Assembly: GCA_003567475.1 (NCBI GenBank)
Contig: PWZL01000071.1
Location: forward strand, 1 to 59,842
From: Gammaproteobacteria bacterium
GTDB lineage: Bacteria > Pseudomonadota > Gammaproteobacteria > Steroidobacterales > PWYM01
Direction of reading: 5' to 3'
DNA length: 59,842 bases
Shown one piece after another: positions 2,147-22,660 of this stretch. The notes under the pieces were generated by a model. The model saw only the letters and a list, made by a program, of their open reading frames with translations. It did no database searches and was not told the origin of the DNA. Position 1 is the stretch's first letter; every line of letters begins with the position of its first letter. The position numbers and the translations under genes were made by a program.

Positions 2147-3511
2147 CTTGCCGAACGACTGGCCGTTGCGACGACCGGCGATGCGCATGGCGATCTCCAT
2201 CGCCTGTTCGTAGTTCAGCCGCGGGTCGACCTGCGACTTGTAAGCCCGCAGGAGATCGGCATCCTGGAGACCGCGCGCACCCCCAGTGCACTCGGTGACA
2301 TTGTCGCCGGTCAGTTCGAGATGCACGCCTCCGAGATGGCTGCCGCTGTCCTCGTGAATCCGGAAAGAGGCTTCGAGCTCGCCGAGGATGTTGTCGAATC
2401 GCCGGGTCTTGACGCCTTCCGCCGTGCTCTCGGTGTTCCCGTGCATCGGGTCGCAGACCCAGAGTACGTTGGCGCCAATGGCCCGCACCGCACGGATCAC
2501 CCGCGGCAGATGCTCTTCCACGTGCTTGGCGCCGAACCGGTGGATCAGCGTCAGCCGACCCGGTTCATTTTGCGGGTTCAGCGCATGGACCAGCGCCTGC
2601 AGCCACTCGTCGTCCATGCCGGTGCCGATCTTTACCGAGACCGGGTTGGCAATGCCCCGGAAATATTCCACGTGCGCGCCATCGACTGCTGCGGTCCGCA
2701 TGCCGATCCAGGGCCAGTGAGTCGAGAGGTTGTACCAGCGCTTGCGATGCGCGAGGAAACGGGTCTGCGCCTGCTCATACGGCAGATGCAGCCCCTCGTG
2801 CGAGGAAAAGAAATCCACCCGCCGTGAATGATGCATGGGTCTTCCGGAAATCGACTCGAGGAAGTCCAGGGAGTCGGAAATCGAGCGGACGATCTCATGA
2901 TACTCGCGCGCCAGCGGCGAGTGCTGCACCCAGTCGAGATCCCAGTTCTCGGGATGATGCAGATCCGCAAAGCCACCGTCGATCAGCGCCCTGACGAAAT
3001 TCAGTGTGAGCGCTGCACGCTCGTAACCGCGCAGCAGCAGTTCCGGATCGGGGACGCGATCCTCGGGCGTGAAGGCGCTGCGGTTGACCAGATCACCCCG
3101 GTAGCTCGGCAGCGTGATGCCGTCGCGGGTTTCGGTGTCTGCAGAGCGCGGCTTCGCGTACTGCCCGGCCATACGGCCGACCCGCACGACCGGCTTCTTC
3201 TGCCCGTGCCACATCACCAGCGACATCTGCAGCAGAATCTTGAGCTTCTGGACGACGTTCTCGGAACTGCATTCGTCGAAGCTTTCCGCGCAGTCACCGC
3301 CCTGCAAGACGAACACTTCACCCCGTTGGGCCGCGGCCACCTGGTTTTTCAGGTGCTCGATCTCCCAGGAGGTGACCAGCGGAGGAAGCTGGCTGAGACG
3401 ACCGAGGACGGCTTCGACGGCCGTCTGGTCAGGGTACAGGGGTTGCTGCGCGGCGACGCGCGACTGCCAGGTGGCAGGGTGCCATTCGGTGGCGGATACA
3501 GGTCTGGTCAT
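2141..3511 (-). CDS. class II 3-deoxy-7-phosphoheptulonate synthase
   Basis: Condenses phosphoenolpyruvate and erythrose 4-phosphate to DAHP, the entry to the shikimate pathway. It is the class II (plant/Mycobacterium-like) enzyme rather than the AroF/G/H class I type: 456 residues instead of about 350, with FVLQGGDCAESF, RMAGQYAKPRS, KIGTGMDDEWLQAL and WVCDPMHGNTE. The conserved Cys of GGDCAE and the His of MHGNT are expected metal ligands. The ATG at 3511 starts MTRPVSATEWHPATW; an upstream in-frame ATG at 3550 adds 13 non-typical residues. No strong ribosome binding site is visible for either. It stands alone, so a role in general aromatic synthesis versus secondary metabolism cannot be decided. 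Confidence 0.92.
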   Translation of the reverse strand: MTRPVSATEWHPATWQSRVAAQQPLYPDQTAVEAVLGRLSQLPPLVTSWEIEHLKNQVAAAQRGEVFVLQGGDCAESFDECSSENVVQKLKILLQMSLVMWHGQKKPVVRVGRMAGQYAKPRSADTETRDGITLPSYRGDLVNRSAFTPEDRVPDPELLLRGYERAALTLNFVRALIDGGFADLHHPENWDLDWVQHSPLAREYHEIVRSISDSLDFLESISGRPMHHSRRVDFFSSHEGLHLPYEQAQTRFLAHRKRWYNLSTHWPWIGMRTAAVDGAHVEYFRGIANPVSVKIGTGMDDEWLQALVHALNPQNEPGRLTLIHRFGAKHVEEHLPRVIRAVRAIGANVLWVCDPMHGNTESTAEGVKTRRFDNILGELEASFRIHEDSGSHLGGVHLELTGDNVTECTGGARGLQDADLLRAYKSQVDPRLNYEQAMEIAMRIAGRRNGQSFGKG

Positions 3512-7289: not shown

Positions 7290-10200
7290 TCAGGACGAGG
7301 CTGCGGCTGACCCGGTCAGTCGCAGCCAGTGTTCATCCAGGCGGCGCGCAGAGACCTTCGTGACCGTCCCCAGCTGCTGGGCGTAGAGCGAGACGGCCAG
7401 CTCCTCAATCAGCCACTCGAAGTCCGCGATGTCAGGCGCGTGCTCTGCCGGCGCCCGGGCACGCGCTCGCCACTGGGCCAGGCGTTCGCGCTGGCGCGCG
7501 AGCTCAGCCGCGTAGTCCGCGTCTCGCGAGTGCCCATGCGCGAGCTTGTCGGCCCGAAGCGACGCCGCAGCCAGATAGACGGGCAATCGCGTACGCCAGC
7601 GTGCCGGTGTCTCCCGCAACATCCGCGGATGCACCAGTCGAGCCGCCTGCTCGCGGATCTGCTCGGCGGCGGGGGCCGGCAACGGGCGCTCCGCCAGCTG
7701 CACCTGCAGCCGACCGTGACGTTCCAGAATATCCGCAAGGGTTGCGGTGACGGCCTCGGAGGCGGGTATCAGCGCCGGCGCGGCAGCCGTCGTGCGAGCC
7801 TCGAACTGTTCACGGCTGCGCGGCAGCGGCTGTCGGTCTGGCAGCATGACATCGCTGAAGGTGGCTGCCGTGACCTCGTCCAGCAAATCCGCCAGACTGC
7901 CGATGGCGCGCCAGTGCAACAGGATCCGGCGATCACGGCGAAGCGCGTGTTCGATGCTTCGCCGCTGCGCTGGAAACCGCAGCATCGCCAGACGCAGGAT
8001 ACCGTCGCGGCTGGCCTGCTCGGCCGCGTCCGCCGTTTCCAGCAGCCTGAGCGATACGCTGTTGCCGCGATCCACCAGGGCCGGATACAGCGTCAGCATC
8101 AGGGGTCCCTGGCGCACACGCTGGCGCTCCGGCAGCTCGTCAAAATCCCACTGGCGTACGCCATCGCGCTCGAACGTGGCCAGCGGCTGGCGACGTTCGG
8201 CCCGGGCCGGGGCGAACCGCGCCTGCAGCGCAGTCACGTCCCGTCCCGCCGCGAGCACATCACCCGACGGGTCGAGTACCCGCACGCGCACGCTCAGCTC
8301 CGGTTCCAGGCGCTCCGCCCAGCGATAGGGATCCGGCGCGAAGCCATGGCGTGTCTGGAGTTCCTGCGCCAGCCAGACTTCGAGCGACATCCCGCTGCTG
8401 TTGAAGCCGGGCGCGCCGCGCGCCAATGCCGCCGCGGTATCCGGCACCGGGACCACCGCACGGCGCGAGGTCTTCGGCAGCCGTCGCAGCAGGGCAGCGA
8501 TGCGCCATGCCAGGTATCCCGGCACCAGCCAACTGAGCCGTGCCGGTTCGACTGCCGGGAGCAGCAGCACCGGCACATCCACCGTGATGCCGTCGTCGTC
8601 CGCGCCCGGATCGAAGCGGTAGTCCAGGCGCAGCGCGTTACCGTCGATCTCCAGCACCTCGGGGAACGCGTCCGGGTCGATCGCAGCCGGGTCGCGCAGG
8701 GCGAGGTCCCCGACAGCGAGACGCAGTCGACCCTCGGCATCGGGATCGCGCGCGAGCCAGCGGGCCAGGCTGCGGGCATCGTTGACACTCGCAGGCAGGC
8801 GCTCATCGTAGAGGGCGGCATGCGCGGCCTCACCGATGACCAGGTCGCGCCGCCTGATTCGGGTTTCGATCGCCTCGAGCCGCTGGAGCTGCCCCCAGTT
8901 GGCTTCGATGACCCGAGGCGGCCGACGCAGCTGCCGACCCGCCAGGCCCTCCTGGATGAACAATGCCCGGGCCGCCGCCGGGTCGTGCGGTGCCAGCGGC
9001 ACACGTCGCCCAGCAGAGAGCATCAGCCCCCACACACTGACCTGCTCGTGACACAGCACTCGGCCACTGCGAGGATCGAAGAAGGCCCCCTCGTGGCGTC
9101 GACGGACCAGCCGCCCTGCCGCCGCCTCGATCCACCCGGGTGTGACCCGCGCCGCGGTGGCGGCATACACGCTTGACGTCTGGATGAGTTCCGCGGCCAT
9201 GATCCATCCCGGCGGTCTGCTCCGGAGGGCGGACCCCGGAAACAGCTGCAGGCGGCTGCCTCGCGCGCCCAGGTAGTGTCTGCCCTGATCGCGGCGCGCG
9301 ACCAGGCTGACCAGCCCGGCAAGCAGCGCGCGGTGGATGGCGGCATGGTCCGCGGCCTCGCGCGACACCCGCAACCGCAGTGCGCGGCAATGCTCGGCGA
9401 GTTGCAGGTGCAGTTCCTGCCACTCCCGTACCCGCCGCCAGGAGACGAAATTCTCACGACACCAGCGCCGCGCGCCCTTTTGTCCCCCGGTCTTTTCCTG
9501 CGTACGCAGCAGCTGCCACAGATTCAGATAGAACAGGAAATCCGAACGTGGATCCGCCAGCGCGGCATGACAGGCGTCGGCCTGTTCACGCTGATCCGGT
9601 GGGCGCTCGCGGGGATCCTGCACCGCGAGGGCGGCGACGATGATCAACACCTCGCGCAGTGACCCCAGCCGCCCGGCTTCCAGCAACATCCGCGCCAGCC
9701 GTGGATCGACCGGCAGCCGTGCCATGCTGCGCCCTGTTTCCGTGATCCGACCCGCCTCGTCGAGGGCACCCAGCTCCTCGAGGACGGCGTAACCGTCACG
9801 CACCGTGGCCAGCGGCGGTGGTTCCAGAAACGGAAACGCCTCGGGTGAGCCCAGGCCCAGTGAGCTCATCTGCAGGATCACCGCCGCGAGGTTGGTGCGC
9901 AGGATCTCGCTATCCGGTTGTGACGCCCGGCTGGCGAAGTCCTCGGCGGAGTACAGCCGCACACACAGTCCTGGGGCCAACCGACCGCACCGGCCCTTGC
10001 GCTGGTCGGCCGACGCCTGCGAGACGGGTTCCACAGGCAGCCGCTGGATCTTCGAGCGCGGGCTGTAGCGGCTGATCCGCGCCGTGCCGGTGTCGATCAC
10101 GTAACGGATTCGGGGTACCGTCAGGGAGGTCTCAGCGACATTGGTCGCCAGCACGATGCGCGGCGCCCCGGCGGGATGGAAGACGAGATCCTGGCGGCCA

Positions 10201-11186
10201 CCGGGCAGTCGACCATACAGCGGCAGGATGTCGAATCCGCGGGGGCCGTCTCGACGCAGGGCGCGCTCGGTGTCGCGGATCAGCCGCTCGCCCGGGAGGA
10301 AGACGAGCATGTCCCGGTGTCGGCCACCGCCAAGCGCCTCCAAGGGTCTTTGGGCGAGCCGGCACGCGGTGGCGACGACGTGGTCCACGAGTTCCGACTC
10401 CTCGCCCGGCGGGTCATATTCGACCTCCACCGGATAGCTGCGACCAGCCACCTCAAGAATGGGGGCATCGCCGAAGTGACGCGAGAAACTGTGCGGATCG
10501 ATGGTCGCGGAGGTGATGATCACCCGCAGTTCAGGCCGTCGGGGGAGCAGTGCCTTGAGATAGCCCAGCAGGAAATCGATGTTGAGGCTGCGTTCGTGGG
10601 CCTCGTCGATGATCAACGTGTCATAGGCGAGCAGCAGCGGATCCTGGCGGATCTCGGCGAGCAGGATGCCGTCGGTCATCAGCTTGACGAGCGTGGCATC
10701 CGCAGTCTGATCGGTGAACCGTACCTTGAAGCCCACCTGGGCGCCGAGCGGGGTCGCCGTCTCTTCCGCAAGCCTTGCGGCCACCGCACGCGCGGCGATC
10801 CGCCGGGGCTGGGTGTGGCCGATCATGCCCCGAAGTCCCCGGCCGGCGCCCAGGCAGATCTTTGGCAGCTGCGTGGTCTTGCCCGAGCCGGTGTCGCCGC
10901 AGACGATGATGAGCGGGTGGGCGGCAAGCGCCGCGGCAATGCGCTCACGGGCGCCGCTGACCGGGAGCTCTGGCGGATATTCGAGTGCCGGGAAGCTGTC
11001 CGCGCGAGCCGCCATGACCCGTTCCGCCGTATCGAGCGCTTCGCTCACCCGCGCCAGCAGCCGGTCGGCCGGTTGCCCGTCGGCGAGGCGGCGCGCCGCC
11101 CGAGTCAACCAGCCCTCGACCTGCGCGACGTCTCGCAGCGGCAGCTTGACGAGGCGGCCGCGCAGCCCGTCGATGCTCACATCCAT
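7290..11186 (-). CDS. hrpA: ATP-dependent RNA helicase HrpA
   Basis: DEAH-box RNA helicase of 1298 residues, the size of E. coli HrpA (1300), which acts on mRNA and on stalled or collided ribosomes. Walker A GDTGSGKT is at 97-104, DEAHE at 194-198, SAT at 226-228, and the conserved QRKGRCGRLAPGLC helicase motif VI appears further on. It continues through the helicase-associated domains into the long DUF3418 C-terminal region typical of HrpA. The ATG at 11186 begins MDVSIDGLRG; the open frame to 11423 runs inside the kinase gene and is rejected. It starts seven bases after the PhoQ-like kinase stops, so co-transcription with that two-component system is likely. Confidence 0.94.
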   Translation of the reverse strand: MDVSIDGLRGRLVKLPLRDVAQVEGWLTRAARRLADGQPADRLLARVSEALDTAERVMAARADSFPALEYPPELPVSGARERIAAALAAHPLIIVCGDTGSGKTTQLPKICLGAGRGLRGMIGHTQPRRIAARAVAARLAEETATPLGAQVGFKVRFTDQTADATLVKLMTDGILLAEIRQDPLLLAYDTLIIDEAHERSLNIDFLLGYLKALLPRRPELRVIITSATIDPHSFSRHFGDAPILEVAGRSYPVEVEYDPPGEESELVDHVVATACRLAQRPLEALGGGRHRDMLVFLPGERLIRDTERALRRDGPRGFDILPLYGRLPGGRQDLVFHPAGAPRIVLATNVAETSLTVPRIRYVIDTGTARISRYSPRSKIQRLPVEPVSQASADQRKGRCGRLAPGLCVRLYSAEDFASRASQPDSEILRTNLAAVILQMSSLGLGSPEAFPFLEPPPLATVRDGYAVLEELGALDEAGRITETGRSMARLPVDPRLARMLLEAGRLGSLREVLIIVAALAVQDPRERPPDQREQADACHAALADPRSDFLFYLNLWQLLRTQEKTGGQKGARRWCRENFVSWRRVREWQELHLQLAEHCRALRLRVSREAADHAAIHRALLAGLVSLVARRDQGRHYLGARGSRLQLFPGSALRSRPPGWIMAAELIQTSSVYAATAARVTPGWIEAAAGRLVRRRHEGAFFDPRSGRVLCHEQVSVWGLMLSAGRRVPLAPHDPAAARALFIQEGLAGRQLRRPPRVIEANWGQLQRLEAIETRIRRRDLVIGEAAHAALYDERLPASVNDARSLARWLARDPDAEGRLRLAVGDLALRDPAAIDPDAFPEVLEIDGNALRLDYRFDPGADDDGITVDVPVLLLPAVEPARLSWLVPGYLAWRIAALLRRLPKTSRRAVVPVPDTAAALARGAPGFNSSGMSLEVWLAQELQTRHGFAPDPYRWAERLEPELSVRVRVLDPSGDVLAAGRDVTALQARFAPARAERRQPLATFERDGVRQWDFDELPERQRVRQGPLMLTLYPALVDRGNSVSLRLLETADAAEQASRDGILRLAMLRFPAQRRSIEHALRRDRRILLHWRAIGSLADLLDEVTAATFSDVMLPDRQPLPRSREQFEARTTAAAPALIPASEAVTATLADILERHGRLQVQLAERPLPAPAAEQIREQAARLVHPRMLRETPARWRTRLPVYLAAASLRADKLAHGHSRDADYAAELARQRERLAQWRARARAPAEHAPDIADFEWLIEELAVSLYAQQLGTVTKVSARRLDEHWLRLTGSAAASS
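7299..7327. terminator. 13-bp hairpin at the slipin/hrpA convergent junction
   Basis: GGCTGCGGCTGAC-CCG-GTCAGTCGCAGCC forms a 13-bp stem (one G-T pair) with a 3-base loop, 23 bases after the slipin stop. It lies inside the last codons of hrpA. No T-tract follows on either strand. It probably ends or protects the slipin transcript. Confidence 0.45.
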
Positions 11187-11193
11187 GATGGCC

Positions 11194-12588
11194 TCAGCGT
11201 GAGACGGGCAAGGAGACCCTGATGAGGGCGCCACCGAGCGCACTTCGCTCGATCTCCAGATGCCCCCCGTAACCCGCAACGATATCACTGACGACGGCGA
11301 GACCGATGCCCTGCCCCGGCAGGCTCTCGTCCAGACGCATGCCGCGGGTACGCGCCGCGTCGGCCAGTGCAGCATCCAGACCCGCGCCATCGTCTTCGAC
11401 CCGCAGCTCCAGTGTGGCTTCACCGGCTCCCGCAGACTTCAGCTGTGCCGCCACCCCGACCTGATGCCGACCGTATTTCCAGGCGTTATCCAGCAGGTTA
11501 CCCAGCAGTTCCTGCAGGTCACCCTCCTCGCCCTGGAAGACGGCGTCGGGCGCGATCTCGCGATGCACCGCGACCGGTCGCTCCCGATACACTTTGGCCA
11601 GACTCTCCAGCAGGTCCTCCACAACCGGCCCCACCGGCAGCGCACGGGTACCCGCCGCGCGTCCGGTGAAGGCTTCTGCGCGTTTGAGTTGATGGCCAAT
11701 GATCCGATCCATGCGGGTAATGCCCTCAGCGAGTTCCCGGCCCAGTTCGGGCTCGACGCGCCCGGCCAGCGTGGCCTGCATCGCCGCCAGAGGGGTTTTC
11801 AGACTATGGGCGAGGTTGGCCAGGCTGTCGCGGTAGCGCTGTTGGCGGCCGCGCTCGCGCGCCAGCAGGGCGTTGAGTTTCCGTGCAACACCCGTGAGCT
11901 CCGCCGGCTGACCGGACGACAGTGCCTCGCGGCTGCCCTGTTCGATCTCGCCAATTTCCCGTTCGATCCGACCCAGTGGCCGCAGGACATGGCGAAGCAC
12001 CAGGGACAGCACCACCAGCGTCGCCAGCGTCAGACCCGCGAACCAGCTGATCAGTCCGACCCGGAAACCCCGCTGCTGGGCGCGGTAGGGCTCCAGGCTC
12101 TGACTGACGACAAAGGTGAACGGACGGGTGGTACCGTCGTCGAACTCCCAGTTGACCGTCACGCGCCGTTCGACCCGTCCGGCGGCGTTCTCCGAAAGCC
12201 GTCGCTGCTGGCGCACGCCCGGCGGTCCGGCCGCCACCACCTCGGCCTCAAGCAGATCCACCGCCGAGGGCGAGCGCCACAGGGTCGCGCCGTCGGCTGC
12301 ACGAATCTCCCCGTACAGGCCTGATGCAGGCAGGGCCATCCGTCGATCCGGGGGGGCGGGGACCGTGAGCTGCTGGCCGACGTCGTCGGGCTCGGCCGCC
12401 GCCATCAGTGCGATCAGCTGGGCCTCGAGCACTTCTGCACGCGCGCGGGCGAGGCTCGCGCTCAGGCTCCATTCAAGGGCCGCCACGGTCGCGGCGAAAA
12501 ACGCCAAAAGCAGCACACCGAGCCACAGCAGGACGCGCAGCCGCAGCGAGCCGCGGGGGCCGGCGACCGGCTCAGCCGCTGCTGGCAT
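11194..12588 (-). CDS. sensor histidine kinase, PhoQ-like
   Basis: Inner-membrane sensor kinase, 464 aa. Two membrane segments (about 18-38 and 177-199) enclose a periplasmic sensor of roughly 135 residues. A HAMP region (RHVLRPLGRIEREI) leads to the phospho-acceptor box NLAHSLKTPLAAM with His261, very close to the E. coli PhoQ box. The ATPase N box (ELLGNLLDNAWKYG) and G boxes (VEDDGAGLD, GQGIGLAVV) follow. The start (ATG 12588) overlaps the response-regulator gene by 17 bases, implying translational coupling. The signal sensed (divalent cations, peptides, pH in PhoQ) cannot be read from sequence. Confidence 0.9.
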   Translation of the reverse strand: MPAAAEPVAGPRGSLRLRVLLWLGVLLLAFFAATVAALEWSLSASLARARAEVLEAQLIALMAAAEPDDVGQQLTVPAPPDRRMALPASGLYGEIRAADGATLWRSPSAVDLLEAEVVAAGPPGVRQQRRLSENAAGRVERRVTVNWEFDDGTTRPFTFVVSQSLEPYRAQQRGFRVGLISWFAGLTLATLVVLSLVLRHVLRPLGRIEREIGEIEQGSREALSSGQPAELTGVARKLNALLARERGRQQRYRDSLANLAHSLKTPLAAMQATLAGRVEPELGRELAEGITRMDRIIGHQLKRAEAFTGRAAGTRALPVGPVVEDLLESLAKVYRERPVAVHREIAPDAVFQGEEGDLQELLGNLLDNAWKYGRHQVGVAAQLKSAGAGEATLELRVEDDGAGLDAALADAARTRGMRLDESLPGQGIGLAVVSDIVAGYGGHLEIERSALGGALIRVSLPVSR

Positions 12589-13267
12589 CAGGGTGCGGAG
12601 TGCGGGGCATGCGGTAGCCTCTGCCACGCAGCGTCTCGATCGGCTGCAGCGTGCCCTCGGGATCGAGCTTGCGGCGGACTCTGCCGATGAACACTTCGAT
12701 GGTATTGCTGTCCCGATCGAAGTCCTGGGCATACAGGCGCTCCGTCAACTCGGTCTTGGAGATCACCTCGCCGGCATGCAGCATGAGGATCTCGAGCAGC
12801 CGGTATTCGAACCCCGTCAGCTCCACCTTGCGGCCGGCGACGCTGACCGTCTGGCTCCCGGTGTCGAGGCTGACGGCGCCGGAGGACAGTTGCGGCCGCG
12901 CCCAGCCGCTGGCCCGCCGCACCAGCGCCTCGAGCCGCGCGATCAGCTCCTGCGGATGAAAGGGTTTGACGACGTAGTCATCCGCGCCAGCTTTCAGGCC
13001 TGCGACCTTGTCCTGCCAGCGGTCTCGCGCGGTCAGGATCAGAATGGGCACATCCTGTCCCGCCTCGCGCAGGGCCGACACCAACCCCATGCCGGACATC
13101 CCGGGCAAGCCGAGATCGACGACGGCCACGTCAACCGGGTACTCGCTGGCGCGGTACAGACCTTCGCGGCCATCGGCGGCCTCATCCACGCTCCAACCGG
13201 CGCCGCGCAGGGCGGCCGCCAGCGCCTGGCGAAGCGGTGTGTCGTCTTCCACGATCAGTGCGCGCAT
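12572..13267 (-). CDS. response regulator, OmpR/PhoP family
   Basis: DNA-binding response regulator of 231 aa. The receiver domain has the acidic cluster VEDD (residues 6-9), the phospho-acceptor Asp51 in VVDLGLPG, and a conserved Lys in VKPF. The C-terminal winged helix (EYRLLEILMLHAGEVIS through the RGRGYRM end) is of the OmpR type. Receiver and linker resemble E. coli PhoP most. The upstream in-frame extension to 13459 covers the PepSY gene in another frame and is rejected in favour of ATG 13267. It follows the PepSY gene by ten bases and overlaps the kinase gene. A PhoP-like direct repeat upstream of the gene group is a candidate autoregulatory site. Confidence 0.9.
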   Translation of the reverse strand: MRALIVEDDTPLRQALAAALRGAGWSVDEAADGREGLYRASEYPVDVAVVDLGLPGMSGMGLVSALREAGQDVPILILTARDRWQDKVAGLKAGADDYVVKPFHPQELIARLEALVRRASGWARPQLSSGAVSLDTGSQTVSVAGRKVELTGFEYRLLEILMLHAGEVISKTELTERLYAQDFDRDSNTIEVFIGRVRRKLDPEGTLQPIETLRGRGYRMPRTPHPDASSG

Positions 13268-13277
13268 GCGGGTGTCC

Positions 13278-13643
13278 TCACGAGATCCGTCCGGTGTCCG
13301 CGTCGACGCTCCACGTGCGGACGCGGCCGTCCGGGCTGAGCACCCGGACTCGGTGGACGACGCGACCGTTCTCGCGGCGCGTCTCGGCCCGCAGCACCCG
13401 TCCGCCCGTGCGTTCCCGCACCCGGCGAACGGCCTCCTCCAGGCCAATCGCCTCGTCATAAGCCGTGGCAGCCGGGTGTGCTTCGGTCAGGCGCAAACCC
13501 GCGCCCGCCGCAGCCTCCGCAATGCCTGGTGACAGCGCCGCCAGCCCCGACAGCACCACCAGCCCGGCCAGGGCACTCATCCCTGAACGCACGGACGGCC
13601 GTCGTGCGGCAAACGGCAGACGGAGCAAGGCAGAACGGGGCAT
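13278..13643 (-). CDS. PepSY-domain periplasmic protein
   Basis: Small exported protein of about 121 aa. A basic start and hydrophobic stretch (GMSALAGLVVLSGLAAL, then a likely cleavage after AEA) is followed by one PepSY domain: AIGLEEAVRRVRERTGG and the end VDADTGRIS. PepSY proteins encoded beside PhoPQ-like pairs in gammaproteobacteria are thought to modulate the sensor, but the mechanism is not settled. Start choice is uncertain between ATG 13643, ATG 13652 and ATG 13676; 13643 gives the most usual signal peptide. It lies ten bases upstream of the response regulator. Confidence 0.78.
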   Translation of the reverse strand: MPRSALLRLPFAARRPSVRSGMSALAGLVVLSGLAALSPGIAEAAAGAGLRLTEAHPAATAYDEAIGLEEAVRRVRERTGGRVLRAETRRENGRVVHRVRVLSPDGRVRTWSVDADTGRIS

Positions 13644-13745
13644 GCAAGTCATCCGGTGGCGCAGGCTACGGGGCAAGCCTGAAACCGCCGGGCAGCAAAA
13701 TCAAGCCGCCCTGCCGCTCGCCTCCCCCCGTCTCCTGCGGTTGCC

Positions 13746-14354
13746 TCAGCGCCCGACAGGCCGCACGTCGACATGCACGCGAAGCTGGTCTCCAGGCGGC
13801 GTGGCCGTACGCGTGCGAAACTCTCGGCCGGCATAGAGATACGTCACATCGTAGCCCTCGAGACGCTCCTCTTCGCGGATCTCGGTCGACACGCTGCAGC
13901 GTTCAACGTTGACCGGGCGCGTCTCCGTAAACGTCCGGGTTGGTGTCCCGCCATGGTAGGGCTGTCGGTTGTGGGCGTGCTCGGCTGCGACCGCGGCGCC
14001 GACCAGCGTGCCGAACAGGGTCATCGCATCACGCCCACGACCTCCCCCGAACTGGTTGCCAACCACGCCACCGATGACGCCGCCGGCAATCGTCGGCGCT
14101 GCGGTGCGAACCCGCGGATCACGGCCCGGCTGCACATGCTGCAGCGTCTCGTAGTGGGTTTCGGTCCAGCATTCCCGCCGGGGCTGTTCCACCCGGACCG
14201 TCCGTACGATGGGGCGCACGTCGATCACGGGCGCGTAGTCGTAGACGGCGCCGCCGGGCGCGTGCTGGCGCGACTGCGCCTGCGCCAGCCCGCTGGCGAG
14301 GAGCAACGCTGCCGCCGCCAGCGGCAGGGTGACGCTATGCCTGGCAAAGTTCAT
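13746..14354 (-). CDS. glycine-zipper 2TM outer-membrane-associated protein
   Basis: Exported protein of 202 aa with a signal peptide ending near LAQAQ (about residue 27). A glycine zipper (GGVIGGVVGNQFGGGRGRD, about residues 91-110) is typical of the 17-kDa surface antigen/SlyB/Rick_17kDa_Anti superfamily, whose members insert into or stabilise the outer membrane. The C-terminal part (VERCSVSTEIREEERLEGYDVTY) matches the usual C-terminal extension. It has no lipobox Cys, unlike SlyB. An AGGAG ribosome binding site lies eight bases before ATG 14354. A PhoP-like direct repeat is 70 bases upstream; in enterobacteria the related slyB is a PhoP target. Confidence 0.85.
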   Translation of the reverse strand: MNFARHSVTLPLAAAALLLASGLAQAQSRQHAPGGAVYDYAPVIDVRPIVRTVRVEQPRRECWTETHYETLQHVQPGRDPRVRTAAPTIAGGVIGGVVGNQFGGGRGRDAMTLFGTLVGAAVAAEHAHNRQPYHGGTPTRTFTETRPVNVERCSVSTEIREEERLEGYDVTYLYAGREFRTRTATPPGDQLRVHVDVRPVGR

Positions 14355-14423
14355 CTCGGGTACTCCTGATGCCTTGACCGCGGCCCGCTGCCGCGACCCT
14401 CAGGGACAGCATCTGCTGTGAGC

Positions 14424-14441
14424 ACTGAACCCGGACTGAAC
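14424..14441 (-). promoter_or_regulatory. PhoP-type operator: perfect 7-bp direct repeat with 11-bp period
   Basis: On the minus strand GTTCAGT-CCGG-GTTCAGT. A hexamer tandem repeat spaced by five bases is the geometry bound by PhoP/OmpR-family regulators as head-to-tail dimers (E. coli box GTTTA-N5-GTTTA type). It sits 70 bases before the glycine-zipper gene and upstream of the PepSY-phoPQ group. A weak -10-like GATGCT lies 11 to 12 bases downstream of the repeat. Function is inferred. Confidence 0.55.
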
Positions 14442-14490
14442 GCCGCGACCGAGGCCTCTCCTCCGCCACTCACACCATGGCGCACGTCGA

Positions 14491-14507
14491 GCCGCCGGCT
14501 CGGCGGC
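14491..14507 (-). terminator. hairpin after mazG
   Basis: GCCGCC-GGCTC-GGCGGC is a perfect 6-bp GC stem ten bases after the mazG stop. It has no T-tract. The 163-base gap between mazG and the glycine-zipper gene otherwise holds only the PhoP-like repeat. Confidence 0.35.
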
Positions 14508-14517
14508 GTCGTGGGTT

Positions 14518-15303
14518 TCAGAGGCCCCGGGTCTTGGCCCCCTGCCAGTGACGTTCGAGCGTCTCCAGCGGCGTCTCGGCGAGCTTGCCCCCGCTGGCGC
14601 CGACCATCTGCTCGATATGCTGGAAGCGGCGGATGAACTTCCGATTGCCCCGTCGCAGCGCTGCTTCCGGATCGACGTCGACCTGCCGACACAGGTTGAC
14701 CATCGCGAAGAGCGCGTCGCCGAGCTCTTCTTCCAGGCGCGTGCCGCGCTCGCCGGCGGCCAGCAGCTCGTCGACCTCTGCCAGCTCTTCATCGACCTTT
14801 GCACGCACCTGCTCGATCTCTGGCCATTCGAAACCGACCGTGGCGGCCCGGCGGGAGAGTTTCAGCGCCTGGCTCAGGGCGGGCAGTCCCTGCGGCACGT
14901 CGGCCAGCAGCCCGCCGACGACCCCGCGTCGGGCCCGTTCTTCCTGCTTGGCCGTTTCCCAACGGTCTCTCAGGACCGCTTCATCATCGATCTTCTCATC
15001 CGAAAACACATGAGGATGCCGTCGTATCAGCTTGTCTGATATCGCTTCCACTACATCCGAGAAGTCGAACACGCCGACTTCCCGAGCCATCTGTGCGTGG
15101 AACACCACCTGCAGCAGCAGGTCGCCAAGCTCGTCTCGCAGATCCTCCAGATCGTCCCGCTCAATGGCGTCCACCACTTCGTAGGCCTCTTCCAAGGTGT
15201 ACGGTGCGATGCTGGCGAAGGTCTGACGCAGATCCCAGGGGCAGCCACGATCCGGATCACGGAGCCGGCGCATGATCTCCAATAGTTTCGAGATATCTGA
15301 CAC
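14518..15303 (-). CDS. mazG: nucleoside triphosphate pyrophosphohydrolase MazG
   Basis: House-cleaning enzyme hydrolysing (d)NTPs, including damaged ones, to NMP and pyrophosphate. Its 261 residues match E. coli MazG (263) with two tandem MazG folds. The N-terminal repeat shows CPWDLRQTFASIAPYTLEEA then EEAYEVVDAIE and DELGDLLLQVVFHA (metal-binding Glu/Asp); the second has DEELAEVDELLA and EEELGDALFAMVNLCR. The start is GTG 15303, overlapping the nudL stop by one base (TAGTG), so translation is coupled. It is the last gene of fumC-nudL-mazG. Confidence 0.94.
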   Translation of the reverse strand: MSDISKLLEIMRRLRDPDRGCPWDLRQTFASIAPYTLEEAYEVVDAIERDDLEDLRDELGDLLLQVVFHAQMAREVGVFDFSDVVEAISDKLIRRHPHVFSDEKIDDEAVLRDRWETAKQEERARRGVVGGLLADVPQGLPALSQALKLSRRAATVGFEWPEIEQVRAKVDEELAEVDELLAAGERGTRLEEELGDALFAMVNLCRQVDVDPEAALRRGNRKFIRRFQHIEQMVGASGGKLAETPLETLERHWQGAKTRGL

Positions 15304-15964: not shown

Positions 15965-18837
<2,873 letters not shown>

Positions 18838-18843
18838 GGCCCC

Positions 18844-20025
18844 GTGGAGATGCGCTGGCCGTCCGGTCTCGACGCGCGCCGGTTCCTGGCCCGCCATTGG
18901 CAACGCCGACCGTTACTGCTCAGAGACGCGGTGGATCCCGCCGAGTTGCCACTGCCCGATGACGACGCGCTGGCGGGGCTGGCGCTGTCACCTGAGGTGG
19001 AATCCCGACTCGTGCGGCAGCGCCGCGGCGAGCACTGGCACCTCGACCACGGCCCGTTCAGCGCCTCGCGCCTGCAGCGATTGCCCCGGCGAGACTGGAC
19101 ATTGCTGTTGCAGGATGTGGACAGCCACCTGCCTGAGACCCGCGGCATATTCGACCTGCTGGCGTTCATCGCACCCTGGCGACGTGAAGACCTGATGATC
19201 AGCCTTGCGGCGCCCGGCGGGACGGTCGGCGCACATGTGGATCAGTACGATGTATTTCTGCTGCAGGTCAGGGGGCGGCGAGAATGGCGCATCGGCAGTC
19301 GCGAGACGCCGGTCGACCTGCGTGAGGATACGCCACTGGCGCTGCTCGCCCGTTTCGAGGAAACCGACCGCTGGATCCTCGATCCTGGCGATGTGCTCTA
19401 CCTGCCGCCAGGGGTGCCCCACTACGGCATCGCGGTCGCTGACAGCAGTCTGTGCGTGACCGCATCGCTGGGCTTTCGTGCGCCGGAGGTCGGAGAACTC
19501 GCGGCCGTCGCGATCGAGGCCCAGTTGGCATCACTGCCGACAGCGCCGAGATACTCGGACACCGGACTGGTGCCGGGCGAAGCCCACGACGGGGAGATCG
19601 GGACGGCGGCGATCGCCCGACTCGAGCGCCTGGTCGAGGCTCTCCCGGAGCGGCGCCTGGCACTGGCGCGTGCCCTGGCGCGACTGGCCACTGAGGTCAA
19701 GCCCTGGCTTGCACCAGAACGGCGCCGACGGGGCCTGGGCGCGGCCGCCCTGTCGCGGCGGCTGGCGCGCGGCGAACTGCTCTGCCTGGCGCCCGGGGCA
19801 CGCGCAGCCTGGCTGAAAACGCAGCATGGGACGACCGAGCTGTACGTGAACGGCCGCTGCTGGCCGCTACCCCCCGGGTGTCGGCGGCTGGCGGCAGCGC
19901 TGGCGGGGCCCGTGGGTGCCGCCAGCCTACCCCAACTCCCGCGTCGGTCGTTTGCACAGGCTGCAGCGCTTGCGGCGCTCTCGGAGCTGTATCGGGAAGG
20001 ACTGCTGGCGCTCAGGCGTCGATGA
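18844..20025 (+). CDS. roxA: ribosomal protein uL16 arginine 3-hydroxylase (RoxA/YcfD, JmjC oxygenase)
   Basis: Fe(II)/2-oxoglutarate-dependent cupin/JmjC oxygenase; E. coli RoxA hydroxylates Arg81 of uL16. It is 393 aa (E. coli 373). The facial triad is readable as His131 and Asp133 in GAHVDQYDVF and His193 in PPGVPHYG, within the double-stranded beta-helix; the dimerisation and winged-helix C-terminal parts follow. The start is GTG 18844, six bases after purB. The stop overlaps the GNAT start as ATGATGA. I judge it an orthologue by sequence pattern and its place next to purB. Confidence 0.88.
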   Translation: MEMRWPSGLDARRFLARHWQRRPLLLRDAVDPAELPLPDDDALAGLALSPEVESRLVRQRRGEHWHLDHGPFSASRLQRLPRRDWTLLLQDVDSHLPETRGIFDLLAFIAPWRREDLMISLAAPGGTVGAHVDQYDVFLLQVRGRREWRIGSRETPVDLREDTPLALLARFEETDRWILDPGDVLYLPPGVPHYGIAVADSSLCVTASLGFRAPEVGELAAVAIEAQLASLPTAPRYSDTGLVPGEAHDGEIGTAAIARLERLVEALPERRLALARALARLATEVKPWLAPERRRRGLGAAALSRRLARGELLCLAPGARAAWLKTQHGTTELYVNGRCWPLPPGCRRLAAALAGPVGAASLPQLPRRSFAQAAALAALSELYREGLLALRRR

Positions 20026-20462
20026 TGACTCAGCCAGTCGGTATCGCTATCCATCCGGCAACATGGGCCGATGATCGTGCGGCACTCATGGCGGTCCGGC
20101 GGGCCGTATTCATCAAGGAACAGGGGGTCAGCGAAGACGAAGAGTGGGACGAGCACGACGCCTGCTGTGAGCACCTGCTGGCCACCACGACGAAACGTGA
20201 CGCAGTTGGCACGGCCCGCCTCCACCCCTCCGGTAGAGTGGGTCGCGTTGCAGTGCTGAAGTCCTTTCGGGGTCTCGGTATCGGGCACGCGCTGATGCTG
20301 GAAATCATCCTTCTGGCGAGCACGCGTGGCCTGCCGCAGCTGGTACTGCATGCGCAGCTGCAGGCACTTGAATTCTACCGCCGGCTCGACTTTGAGGTCT
20401 GCGGCGAGGAGTTCCTCGAGGCCGGCATCGCCCACGTCGAAATGGTGAAACGTCTGAAGTGA
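20022..20462 (+). CDS. GNAT-family N-acetyltransferase (ElaA/YjcF-like)
   Basis: 146-residue GNAT fold protein. The region AVRRAVFIKEQGVSEDEEWD is the typical N-terminal motif of the ElaA/YjcF group, followed by GTARLHPSGRVGRVAVLKSF and the acetyl-CoA loop RGLGIGHALM, and the C-terminal LHAQLQALEFYRRLDFEV. The substrate is unknown. Two ATG codons (20022, 20025) overlap the roxA TGA; its own stop overlaps the next gene's GTG (GTGA). In several gammaproteobacteria I believe the next domain is fused to this one, which suggests a joint function. Confidence 0.85.
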   Translation: MMTQPVGIAIHPATWADDRAALMAVRRAVFIKEQGVSEDEEWDEHDACCEHLLATTTKRDAVGTARLHPSGRVGRVAVLKSFRGLGIGHALMLEIILLASTRGLPQLVLHAQLQALEFYRRLDFEVCGEEFLEAGIAHVEMVKRLK

Positions 20463-20962
20463 ATTCCGAGCACGTCATCCGCCGCAGCCGGCGTCGCCTG
20501 CTCGCCAGCCAGCAGGACGTCCGCGCCGCCGTCGTCGAGGTCACCGGCGTCGCAAGCAGGACGCTGTCGATCTTCACCCATGATCTCGAGCCCCAGATCT
20601 ACGCTCACGATGACTTCCTCGAGGCGGTCAAGCGGTTCGTGCTTTCGCGCAGCTTCACGCGGGTCCGCGTGCTCATCGGCGATCCGCAACGCGCGATCAA
20701 GATCAGCCACCGGTTCGTGGCCATGGGCCGGCGCCTCAACAGCTATATCGAGTTCCGCCATCGCAACCCCGAACTGGGCGCCTGTCCCGAGGCCTATCTC
20801 ATCGCCGACGATACCGGCCTGGTGTTCCGGGCAGACGCCACGCGTTGGGAAGGTCTGTCGGACACCTTCGAACCCGCGGTCGCACGCAAGTACCTCTCCC
20901 GTTTCGATGAACTGTGGGCCGCCTGCGAGCCCTCCCCGGAGATTCGCGAACTGCGAGTGTGA
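20459..20962 (+). CDS. uncharacterised protein, DUF7931-like, partner of the GNAT protein
   Basis: 167 aa with no signal peptide or membrane segment. The pattern (LSIFTHDLEPQIYAHDDFLE, FVLSRSFTRVRVLIGDP, AYLIADDTGLVFRAD) resembles the domain I know as DUF7931, often attached to or beside GNAT acetyltransferases. The alternating strands with His-Asp positions recall a phospholipase-D-like half fold without the HKD motif; this is impression only. The GTG start overlaps the GNAT stop by four bases, so expression is coupled. Function unknown. Confidence 0.75.
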   Translation: MNSEHVIRRSRRRLLASQQDVRAAVVEVTGVASRTLSIFTHDLEPQIYAHDDFLEAVKRFVLSRSFTRVRVLIGDPQRAIKISHRFVAMGRRLNSYIEFRHRNPELGACPEAYLIADDTGLVFRADATRWEGLSDTFEPAVARKYLSRFDELWAACEPSPEIRELRV

Positions 20963-20994
20963 GCCGTTAGACGGCCCGCCACGTGCTCTCGGGG

Positions 20995-21000
20995 TATACT
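20995..21000 (+). promoter_or_regulatory. -10-like TATACT immediately before nudJ
   Basis: TATACT ends six bases before the nudJ ATG. If used, transcription would start at or next to the ATG and the mRNA would be leaderless. The -35 region is weak. The 44-base gap holds no obvious ribosome binding site. Confidence 0.35.
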
Positions 21001-21006
21001 GACGCC

Positions 21007-21489
21007 ATGAATAACGGTATCGATGTCACCGTCGCGGCCGTCACCGAGCGCGCCGGGCGCTTCCTGATGGTCGAGGAACGGGTTTCAGGCAGCACCGTGA
21101 TCAATCAGCCCGCCGGTCACCTCGAACCCGGCGAATCGCTGGTCGAAGCGGTGATCCGCGAGACGCTCGAGGAGACGGCCTGGGCGCTGGAGCCTGAGGC
21201 CGTCACGGGCATTTACCTGTGGCAGACCCCTGATCAGTCCCGCAGCTTCCTGCGGGTGGCCTTCGCCGGGCAGTGCCGTGGCCACGATCCCGACCGCCAT
21301 CTGGACACGGGGATCATCGCAGCACACTGGCTGACACGCGAGGACCTCGCCGGCCAGGCCGAGCGCCTGCGCAGCCCCATGGTCATGCGCTGTATCGACG
21401 ACTACCTGGCGGGCATCCGCTACCCGCTGGACTGTCTCACCCAGGTGGACGCCGCGACACCTCGGCAGGCGCTCAGCGCCGCCGGATGA
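21007..21489 (+). CDS. nudJ: NUDIX phosphatase NudJ
   Basis: 160-residue Nudix hydrolase; E. coli NudJ (153 aa) dephosphorylates HMP-PP and nucleoside di/triphosphates. The Nudix box is intact: GHLEPGESLVEAVIRETLEE then TAW. The N-terminus (MNNGIDVTVAAVTERAGRFL) and the C-terminal region (IDDYLAGIRYPLD) fit NudJ. It precedes mnmA by 13 bases, the same order as in E. coli (nudJ-mnmA). No ribosome binding site is seen, but a TATACT sits six bases upstream of the ATG. Confidence 0.9.
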   Translation: MNNGIDVTVAAVTERAGRFLMVEERVSGSTVINQPAGHLEPGESLVEAVIRETLEETAWALEPEAVTGIYLWQTPDQSRSFLRVAFAGQCRGHDPDRHLDTGIIAAHWLTREDLAGQAERLRSPMVMRCIDDYLAGIRYPLDCLTQVDAATPRQALSAAG

Positions 21490-21502
21490 GACCCCCGACA
21501 TC

Positions 21503-22660
21503 GTGACGGCGCCCATCAAGGCCCGTGACGGTCTGGTCATCGTGGCCCTTTCGGGCGGGGTCGACAGCGCGGTCGCGGCCTGGCGTCTGCTCGAGCAGGG
21601 CTGGCAGGTCCAGGGCCTGCATATGACCAACTGGGAAGACGACGCGGCCTATTGTACGGCGGCAGAGGACCTGCGGGCTGCCCGCCGCGTCGCCAATCAG
21701 TTAGGCATTCCGCTGCACCTGGTGAATTTTTCCGCGGCTTACCGCGCACGGGTGTTTCAGGCGTTTCTCGACGAGTACGCCGCGGGCCGGACGCCCAATC
21801 CCGATGTGCTCTGTAACCGGGAGATCAAGTTCGGCGAGTGCCTGCGACACGCGCGTCGGCTGGGCGCCGACTTCCTCGCCACCGGCCATTACGCCCGAGT
21901 GCTGCGCCAGGACGACGGGATACGCCTGGCGCTGGCCACTGACGAGGCCAAGGACCAGACCTATTTCCTGCACGCGGTGCCGCGTGCGGCCCTGGCCCAT
22001 GCCCTGTTCCCCCTCGGTGATCTGCGCAAGGCTGAGGTCCGCTCGCTGGCGCGCGACATCGGTCTCGCCAACTGGGACCGCCCGGACAGCACGGGAATCT
22101 GTTTCATCGGCGAACGGCCATTCCAGGAATTCCTGGGTGAGCATCTTGCGGCCCGTCCCGGGCCCATCGAGGATGAGCAGGGCACGGTGGTTGGCGAGCA
22201 TCGGGGCCTGATGTTCTACACCATCGGTCAGCGCGGCGGACTGGGTCTTGGCGGGCGGGCCGGCGCTCCCGAGGCGCCGTGGTACGTCGCGGCCAAGCGC
22301 ACCGCGGACAACACCCTGGTGGTCGTTCAGGGCGCCCACCACCCGAGGCTCTTCAGCGCAGCGCTGATCGCCGATTCATTCCACTGGATCGGCGACCCGC
22401 CGGTGACCGCAGCCGGGGCGCTTGGCCGAGCGCTGCAGGTGCGGATCCGGCATCGCCAGACCCTCCAGCCGGCTCGGCTGACCCTCGACGCGGCGACAGC
22501 GCAGGGCCTGGTCGAATTTGCCCAGCCGCAGCGTGGCGTGGCGCCCGGTCAGTATGTCGTGTTCTATGACGGTGAATGCTGCCTTGGCGGCGGGGTCATC
22601 CGCGAGGCGCTGGCGACCTCCCCGACGGCCGAAACGCTGCAGGCATCGCTGCCATATTGA
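21503..22660 (+). CDS. mnmA: tRNA-specific 2-thiouridylase MnmA
   Basis: Makes 2-thiouridine at the wobble U34 of tRNA-Lys, -Glu and -Gln, taking sulfur from the Tus relay or a cysteine desulfurase. 385 aa. The PP-loop SGGVDS is at 17-22; the catalytic Cys104 (NPDVLCNREIKF) and Cys200 (STGICFIG) are both present, as is the TUDOR-like C-terminus with APGQYVVFYDGE. The start is GTG 21503. One substrate tRNA, tRNA-Lys(UUU), is encoded at 49.7 kb. In E. coli hflD follows mnmA; here aconitase does. Confidence 0.95.
   Translation: MTAPIKARDGLVIVALSGGVDSAVAAWRLLEQGWQVQGLHMTNWEDDAAYCTAAEDLRAARRVANQLGIPLHLVNFSAAYRARVFQAFLDEYAAGRTPNPDVLCNREIKFGECLRHARRLGADFLATGHYARVLRQDDGIRLALATDEAKDQTYFLHAVPRAALAHALFPLGDLRKAEVRSLARDIGLANWDRPDSTGICFIGERPFQEFLGEHLAARPGPIEDEQGTVVGEHRGLMFYTIGQRGGLGLGGRAGAPEAPWYVAAKRTADNTLVVVQGAHHPRLFSAALIADSFHWIGDPPVTAAGALGRALQVRIRHRQTLQPARLTLDAATAQGLVEFAQPQRGVAPGQYVVFYDGECCLGGGVIREALATSPTAETLQASLPY

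Follow-up and report, generated by a model that had tools for sequence, protein, structure and literature searches.

A PhoP-type promoter box that is real and conserved, and very probably autoregulatory, precedes a ycfJ-pepSY-phoP-phoQ operon in a gammaproteobacterium of the order Steroidobacterales. In the window, that is, the whole stretch of 59,842 nucleotides analysed here (contig PWZL01000071.1), the box lies in the 163-bp gap between mazG (14518-15303, minus strand) and a glycine-zipper gene, 70 bp upstream of the latter, which heads the pepSY - response regulator - sensor kinase (- hrpA) operon (Table 1). Read on the minus strand from 14441 to 14424, it is the perfect heptamer direct repeat GTTCAGT/CCGG/GTTCAGT with an 11-bp register that the initial annotation had described. 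We propose, with a probability of roughly 0.8, that this is the binding site of the operon's own PhoP-type regulator and that the operon forms a positively autoregulated envelope circuit. The earlier assignment to the PhoP/OmpR type of site is supported by conservation in the order, by genome-wide statistics and by co-occurrence with the PhoP orthologue, and the suggestion of an autoregulated operon agrees with the place of the box at the head of the operon that encodes the regulator, both throughout the order and in others, such that an autoregulated envelope regulon appears well supported.

Table 1. Coordinates of the promoter, leader and operon features in the window.
Feature	Position	Strand	Basis
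PhoP-type box GTTCAGT-CCGG-GTTCAGT (RTTCAG-N5-RTTCAG), -35 position	14424..14441	-	read directly; conservation; co-occurrence with PhoP orthologue
-10-like hexamer GATGCT, 11 bp past the box	14408..14413	-	position-specific conservation; 35-locus consensus TAnnCT
Predicted transcription start, 7-8 nt past the -10	14400..14401	-	promoter geometry
5'-leader hairpin, 9-bp stem GGUCGCGGC/GCCGCGGUC, loop AGCGG	14376..14398	-	fold -17.5 kcal/mol
Ribosome-binding site AGGAG of the ycfJ-like gene	14363..14367	-	read directly
ycfJ-like gene, exported glycine-zipper protein, 202 aa, no lipobox	13746..14354	-	Pfam PF05433; similarity to E. coli YcfJ
pepSY gene, small exported PepSY-domain protein (DbfQ-like), 132 aa	13278..13676	-	Pfam PF03413
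Response regulator, OmpR/PhoP class, PhoP orthologue	12572..13264	-	NCBIfam, identity, tree
Sensor histidine kinase, PhoQ-like	11194..12588	-	best NCBIfam model PhoQ; start codon predicted, at ~12588
hrpA, DEAH RNA helicase	7290..11186	-	TIGR01967 above cut-off; starts 7 bp past the kinase stop

By itself the motif is weak evidence, since its looser matches in the window, with up to 3 mismatches, stand at chance level (37 found, 37.6 expected). The exact form, RTTCAG-N5-RTTCAG, has a single copy in the window, which is the box itself, and whole-genome scans, which were pattern searches, found 4 copies in the 3.06-Mb genome versus 0 for the reversed control. Conservation of the repeat in related species, which had been proposed as a check, was found. 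We collected 40 orthologous loci from the same order, of which 37 (window included) have an upstream region uncut by a contig end; in 36 of them the motif, allowing at most 1 mismatch, is found at the same place in the promoter, and the sole exception, L075, is missing the glycine-zipper gene. Under uniform composition, about 0.4 such matches would be expected across the upstream stretches of all 37 loci. In two genomes of the same genus, G001 and G004, the operon contig is cut and the box stands at the contig end (L231, L230), with the start of ycfJ behind it in G001.

The gaps between the genes (69 bp between ycfJ and pepSY, 13 bp between pepSY and the response regulator gene, an overlap of the regulator and kinase genes, and 7 bp before hrpA) suggest one transcript; hrpA, which lies ~30-350 bp after the kinase gene in many loci of the order, is probably co-transcribed. 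The first gene had been called SlyB-like, an identity that we rejected: its product matches E. coli YcfJ with 34% identity over 152 residues (E 1e-20; best NCBIfam model PRK11280, 77 bits, under the cut-off of 99), whereas the match to SlyB reaches only E 0.0075 over the zipper and MNFARHSVTLPLAAAALLLASGLAQAQ has no lipobox Cys. The PepSY gene and the PhoPQ-like pair were correctly placed behind the box (PF03413; best NCBIfam models PhoP and PhoQ), and the PepSY protein of the operon is the only one in the genome. The regulator scores 200 bits with the PhoP model, below its equivalog cut-off of 336, a model that may be tuned to enterobacteria; the kinase scores 199 bits with PhoQ (next model, 80), below the equivalog cut-off of 497. 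Identity of the regulator is 43% to E. coli PhoP and 52-53% to PhoP of P. aeruginosa PA7. In the tree, whose bootstrap is not fully settled, it falls inside a 22-row clade (99/99) with the E. coli and Pseudomonas PhoP proteins, rather than with QseB/BasR, and E. coli PhoP is nested beside Pseudomonas PhoP. Its recognition helix (RDSNTIEVFIGRVRRK) is nearer that of P. aeruginosa (RDANVIEVLVGRLRRK) than that of E. coli (RESHTIDVLMGRLRKK). The AF2 model of the periplasmic sensor of the kinase has a PAS/PDC fold (pLDDT 90), and PhoQ sensor domains (Z 9-10.7) are among its top structural matches, tied with other PAS/Cache sensors. The neighbourhood (window 15965-22660) comprises mnmA, a nudJ-like NUDIX gene, a GNAT gene, a roxA/ycfD-like cupin gene, purB, fumC, a NUDIX gene and mazG; the upstream presence of mnmA, the nudJ-like gene, roxA and purB recalls the E. 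coli order purB-phoP-phoQ-roxA and supports orthology. A megablast search against plasmids gave no match. In other orders (L260-L264, L270, L271), a small gene for a cytochrome c-like protein (LDLAKKSGCxxC) precedes the operon and has either a box of its own or the only box of the operon.

Many OmpR-family regulators read 11-bp direct repeats, and the genome encodes about two dozen OmpR-type regulators (24 matches), such that some other member of the family, and not the operon's own regulator, could bind the box. We consider this unlikely, given how the box is distributed. Using a search pattern formed by the box, 11 bp and the -10 element, with the reversed pattern as control, we found 88 sites versus 1 in 59 related genomes. 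The 42 relatives with a PhoP orthologue account for 60 non-operon sites, a few of them being operon copies on split contigs; the 17 relatives without it have 2 sites, one of which precedes a ycfJ fragment in an incomplete assembly. A second sample of 229 genomes, evenly drawn from the class and sharing 3 with the first set, gave 157 sites versus 2 for the control. Here, a site was present in 76 of the 104 genomes with a PhoP orthologue (E <= 1e-68) versus 5 of the 125 without one (Fisher p = 2e-30, a guide only, as the samples carry the usual phylogenetic dependence). No exact match to the box plus -10 pattern occurs in 28 of the 104 orthologue-bearing genomes, and no box was seen upstream in Mizugakiibacter and Arenimonas, close relatives by their regulator. 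Against a different regulator, then, the box tracks the PhoP orthologue across the class, heads its operon in order after order, and has the motif of P. aeruginosa PhoP. This co-occurrence is the best computational evidence that the operon-encoded regulator would read the box.

The window's own genome has only two or three other boxes, none at the standard -10 spacing. Two of the four exact copies lie on one 8.7-kb contig (L079, G000:C34:1-8744; 3103-3119, plus strand, and 7464-7480, minus strand), where they precede a GH43-like lipoprotein gene and a DUF1800-DUF1501 pair with non-standard -10 spacing; these genes adjoin phosphonate-transporter genes and a glycerophosphodiesterase gene. A box on contig C15, which overlaps a ygfB-like gene at its end and is oriented away from the next start, was set aside as probably due to chance. 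The same applies to two N6-spaced motifs, which have no -10-like hexamer at the expected distance.

The promoter layout bears on whether the box activates or represses. Alignment of 35 sites shows half-sites with almost no variation around a 5-bp spacer of free sequence, and 11 bp past the box a further conserved block, TAnnCT, begins (T 30/35, A 34/35, last T 34/35). Two features of a P. aeruginosa-type PhoP box are present: two RTTCAG half-sites as an 11-bp direct repeat, and a promoter location beside a conserved -10 element, at a fixed distance in 35 loci. The -10 of the window is weak, with G in place of the first T, and a sigma-70 scan found no promoter at the locus, the outcome expected when a promoter depends on an activator and has no -35. 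From the alignment, then, this is apparently a promoter in which the box stands in for the -35 element. Negative feedback, with the box acting as an operator for repression, has a precedent in P. aeruginosa PhoP, which represses retS and rsmZ; those sites, however, lie downstream of the -10, whereas here the box replaces a -35 consensus and keeps a constant distance of 11 bp from the -10, as would be expected of direct activation. Repression is in our view unlikely. At two loci (L044, L076), a second box in opposite orientation lies beside the operon box, ~1.07-1.12 kb before the start of the response regulator gene, and apparently serves a divergent gene.

Downstream of the predicted start, the operon mRNA would carry a leader hairpin. 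Taken alone, the hairpin of the window (-17.5 kcal/mol) has a z of only -1.06. In 36 leaders of the order (L037-L076), the stem begins a few bases past the predicted start site, with a mean stem score of 5.8 versus 2.81 +/- 0.32 for shuffles, in agreement with a dinucleotide-shuffle run; the finder takes the best stem and was applied in the same way to the controls. The sequence of the stem varies freely while the pairing is kept, as in AATCGGG/CCCGATT (L053), GGCGAAAA/TTTTCGCC (L056) and GGCTC/GAGCC (L057). It might be argued from this conserved place and varying sequence that the hairpin is the functional leader element, acting by RNA control, and the box merely part of a basal promoter. This seems very improbable to us: the box is present in other orders and before other box-bearing genes, where the hairpin is weak or absent, and the two elements can coexist. 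The hairpin was rejected as a general feature of the regulon, as 57 leaders of other box-bearing genes scored 2.76 versus 2.58 for shuffles. A terminator was ruled out because the hairpin is missing a T-run, and Rfam recognised no known RNA family in window 13000-14700. Its most likely role would be protection of the 5' end. Finally, although short perfect repeats can arise randomly and degenerate versions of the motif are no commoner in the window than chance predicts, an origin of the box by chance in a short intergenic region is rejected by the 36 of 37 conserved loci and the genome-wide statistics.

We then considered which genes lie behind the box outside the operon. Almost all those behind the non-operon sites of the order encode exported proteins. 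Of 49 such targets, chosen by a fixed rule, 94% have a strong hydrophobic, signal-like segment at the N-terminus; applied at randomly placed positions in these loci, the rule gave control ORFs of which 31% have one (p = 1e-17). The families that recur are DUF3300 proteins, RH-rich exported proteins and small outer-membrane barrels, to which SlyB-like lipoproteins, OmpA/YMGG-type glycine-zipper proteins and SmpA-like lipoproteins are added, the SlyB-like and SmpA-like labels being given by reading the sequence. A further recurrent exported family (TIRLFPTTVLEDIR...) has no Pfam model. An exported family with the sequence TIRLFPTTVLEDIRxTGxVAEEMESGL is found repeatedly behind the box (L193, L198, L199, L202, L205, L214, L216, L240), and L198, the member tested, had no Pfam match. 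The initial annotation proposed a test for enrichment before envelope and LPS-modification genes; the envelope part is borne out by the hydrophobic N-termini, whereas no LPS-modification gene was among the recovered targets. In one genome only (L204, G043:C255), csrA has a box with a -10 ~250 bp ahead of it, where the preceding gene ends. The hairpin and the target list seem to be undescribed in the literature searched, where nothing relevant was found on PhoP with ycfJ or on PepSY with a TTCAG site.

The enterobacterial PhoP box consists of GTTTA repeats with the same 11-bp direct-repeat geometry as that of the window, where the half-site is GTTCAG. The enterobacterial regulator (43%) and the kinase (37% in its cytoplasmic part) are orthologous to those of the window, and both systems lie near purB and roxA. 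They differ in the recognition helix (DSN in the window, ESH in enterobacteria), in the acidic run EDDDDAE of the enterobacterial PhoQ sensor, no such run being found in the sensor sequence of the window kinase, and in the inclusion of pepSY and ycfJ in the window operon, whereas E. coli ycfJ is elsewhere in the genome. A contig titled Klebsiella pneumoniae (a MAG; L087) carries a ycfJ-pepSY-response regulator locus with a GTTCAG-type box and not the enterobacterial PhoP arrangement; it is probably a mislabelled bin. The closer likeness is to the oprH-phoP-phoQ box of P. aeruginosa, with the same half-site, 11-bp register, place before the regulator's operon and orthologous regulator. There, the operon has oprH where that of the window has ycfJ-pepSY, and strain PA7 repeats GTTCAG four times in tandem, again in this register, where the window has one half-site pair. 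The initial annotation took the GTTCAG consensus for lineage-specific, which does not hold: the consensus published for P. aeruginosa PhoP is GTTCAGNNNNNRTTCAG, supported by gel shift, promoter mutation and ChIP-seq (PMC3156716, PMC7916210), and phoPQ-like operons of Pseudomonas, Colwellia, Beijerinckiaceae and Methylobacterium have the box in front of them too, so that GTTCAG is, on these sequences, the common form outside enterobacteria.

The pair is PhoPQ by descent, as the tree indicates and as had been proposed; however, the PepSY gene makes the module resemble DbfQRS of V. cholerae (VC1637-1639; PMC12714742, PMC7768729, PMC5636140), in which a small periplasmic PepSY protein likewise accompanies a PhoP-like regulator and a PhoQ-like kinase. 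In the window too, the gene of a small exported PepSY protein comes directly before the regulator and kinase genes, 13 bp from the former. The likeness is one of gene layout, and the window operon, unlike DbfQRS, begins with ycfJ and often runs into hrpA. DbfQ binds the sensor of its kinase and favours phosphatase activity, as is known for V. cholerae only, and outer-membrane damage activates the regulator (PMC12714742). PhoQ ligands elicit no response from the kinase (PMC7768729). As the layout matches, Mg2+ sensing should not be assumed for the window operon; because that layout is shared and the DbfQRS kinase ignores PhoQ ligands, the expected signal, by analogy, would be a disturbance of the outer membrane and not necessarily Mg2+.

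From all this we infer the binding, the activation, the signal, the action of PepSY and the function of the hairpin as follows. A dimer of the phosphorylated regulator would bind the pair of GTTCAG half-sites in head-to-tail orientation at the -35 place, and would activate the promoter through the -10 element that follows after 11 bp (start at about 14401); the resulting ycfJ-pepSY-phoP-phoQ (-hrpA) transcript would close a positive feedback loop. By analogy with DbfQ/DbfS of V. cholerae, the small periplasmic PepSY protein would keep the kinase in check until a disturbance of the outer membrane occurs. The hairpin in the leader, close to the 5' end predicted for the mRNA, would most likely protect or pace this one transcript, and in related species the same regulator would control a small regulon of exported envelope proteins.

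Tentatively, and at somewhat less than even odds, the operon may represent an older form of the PhoPQ circuit, in which GTTCAG is the original half-site, and GTTTA, together with the change from DSN to ESH, is derived, a polarity for GTTTA suggested by the tree and the outgroups. PepSY would then restrain the circuit as other regulators do in enterobacteria, and the order would have gained an RNA layer in the form of a 5' hairpin conserved in place. PhoPQ has been studied almost entirely in enterobacteria and Pseudomonas. The class-wide occurrence of the box and of the ycfJ-pepSY-phoPQ layout would give, for many Gammaproteobacteria not yet studied, a list of targets of a PepSY-coupled envelope response, made up of DUF3300 proteins, RH-rich exported proteins, small barrels and an uncharacterised exported family, and the switch of PhoP DNA specificity from GTTCAG to GTTTA becomes testable through one or two residues of the recognition helix.
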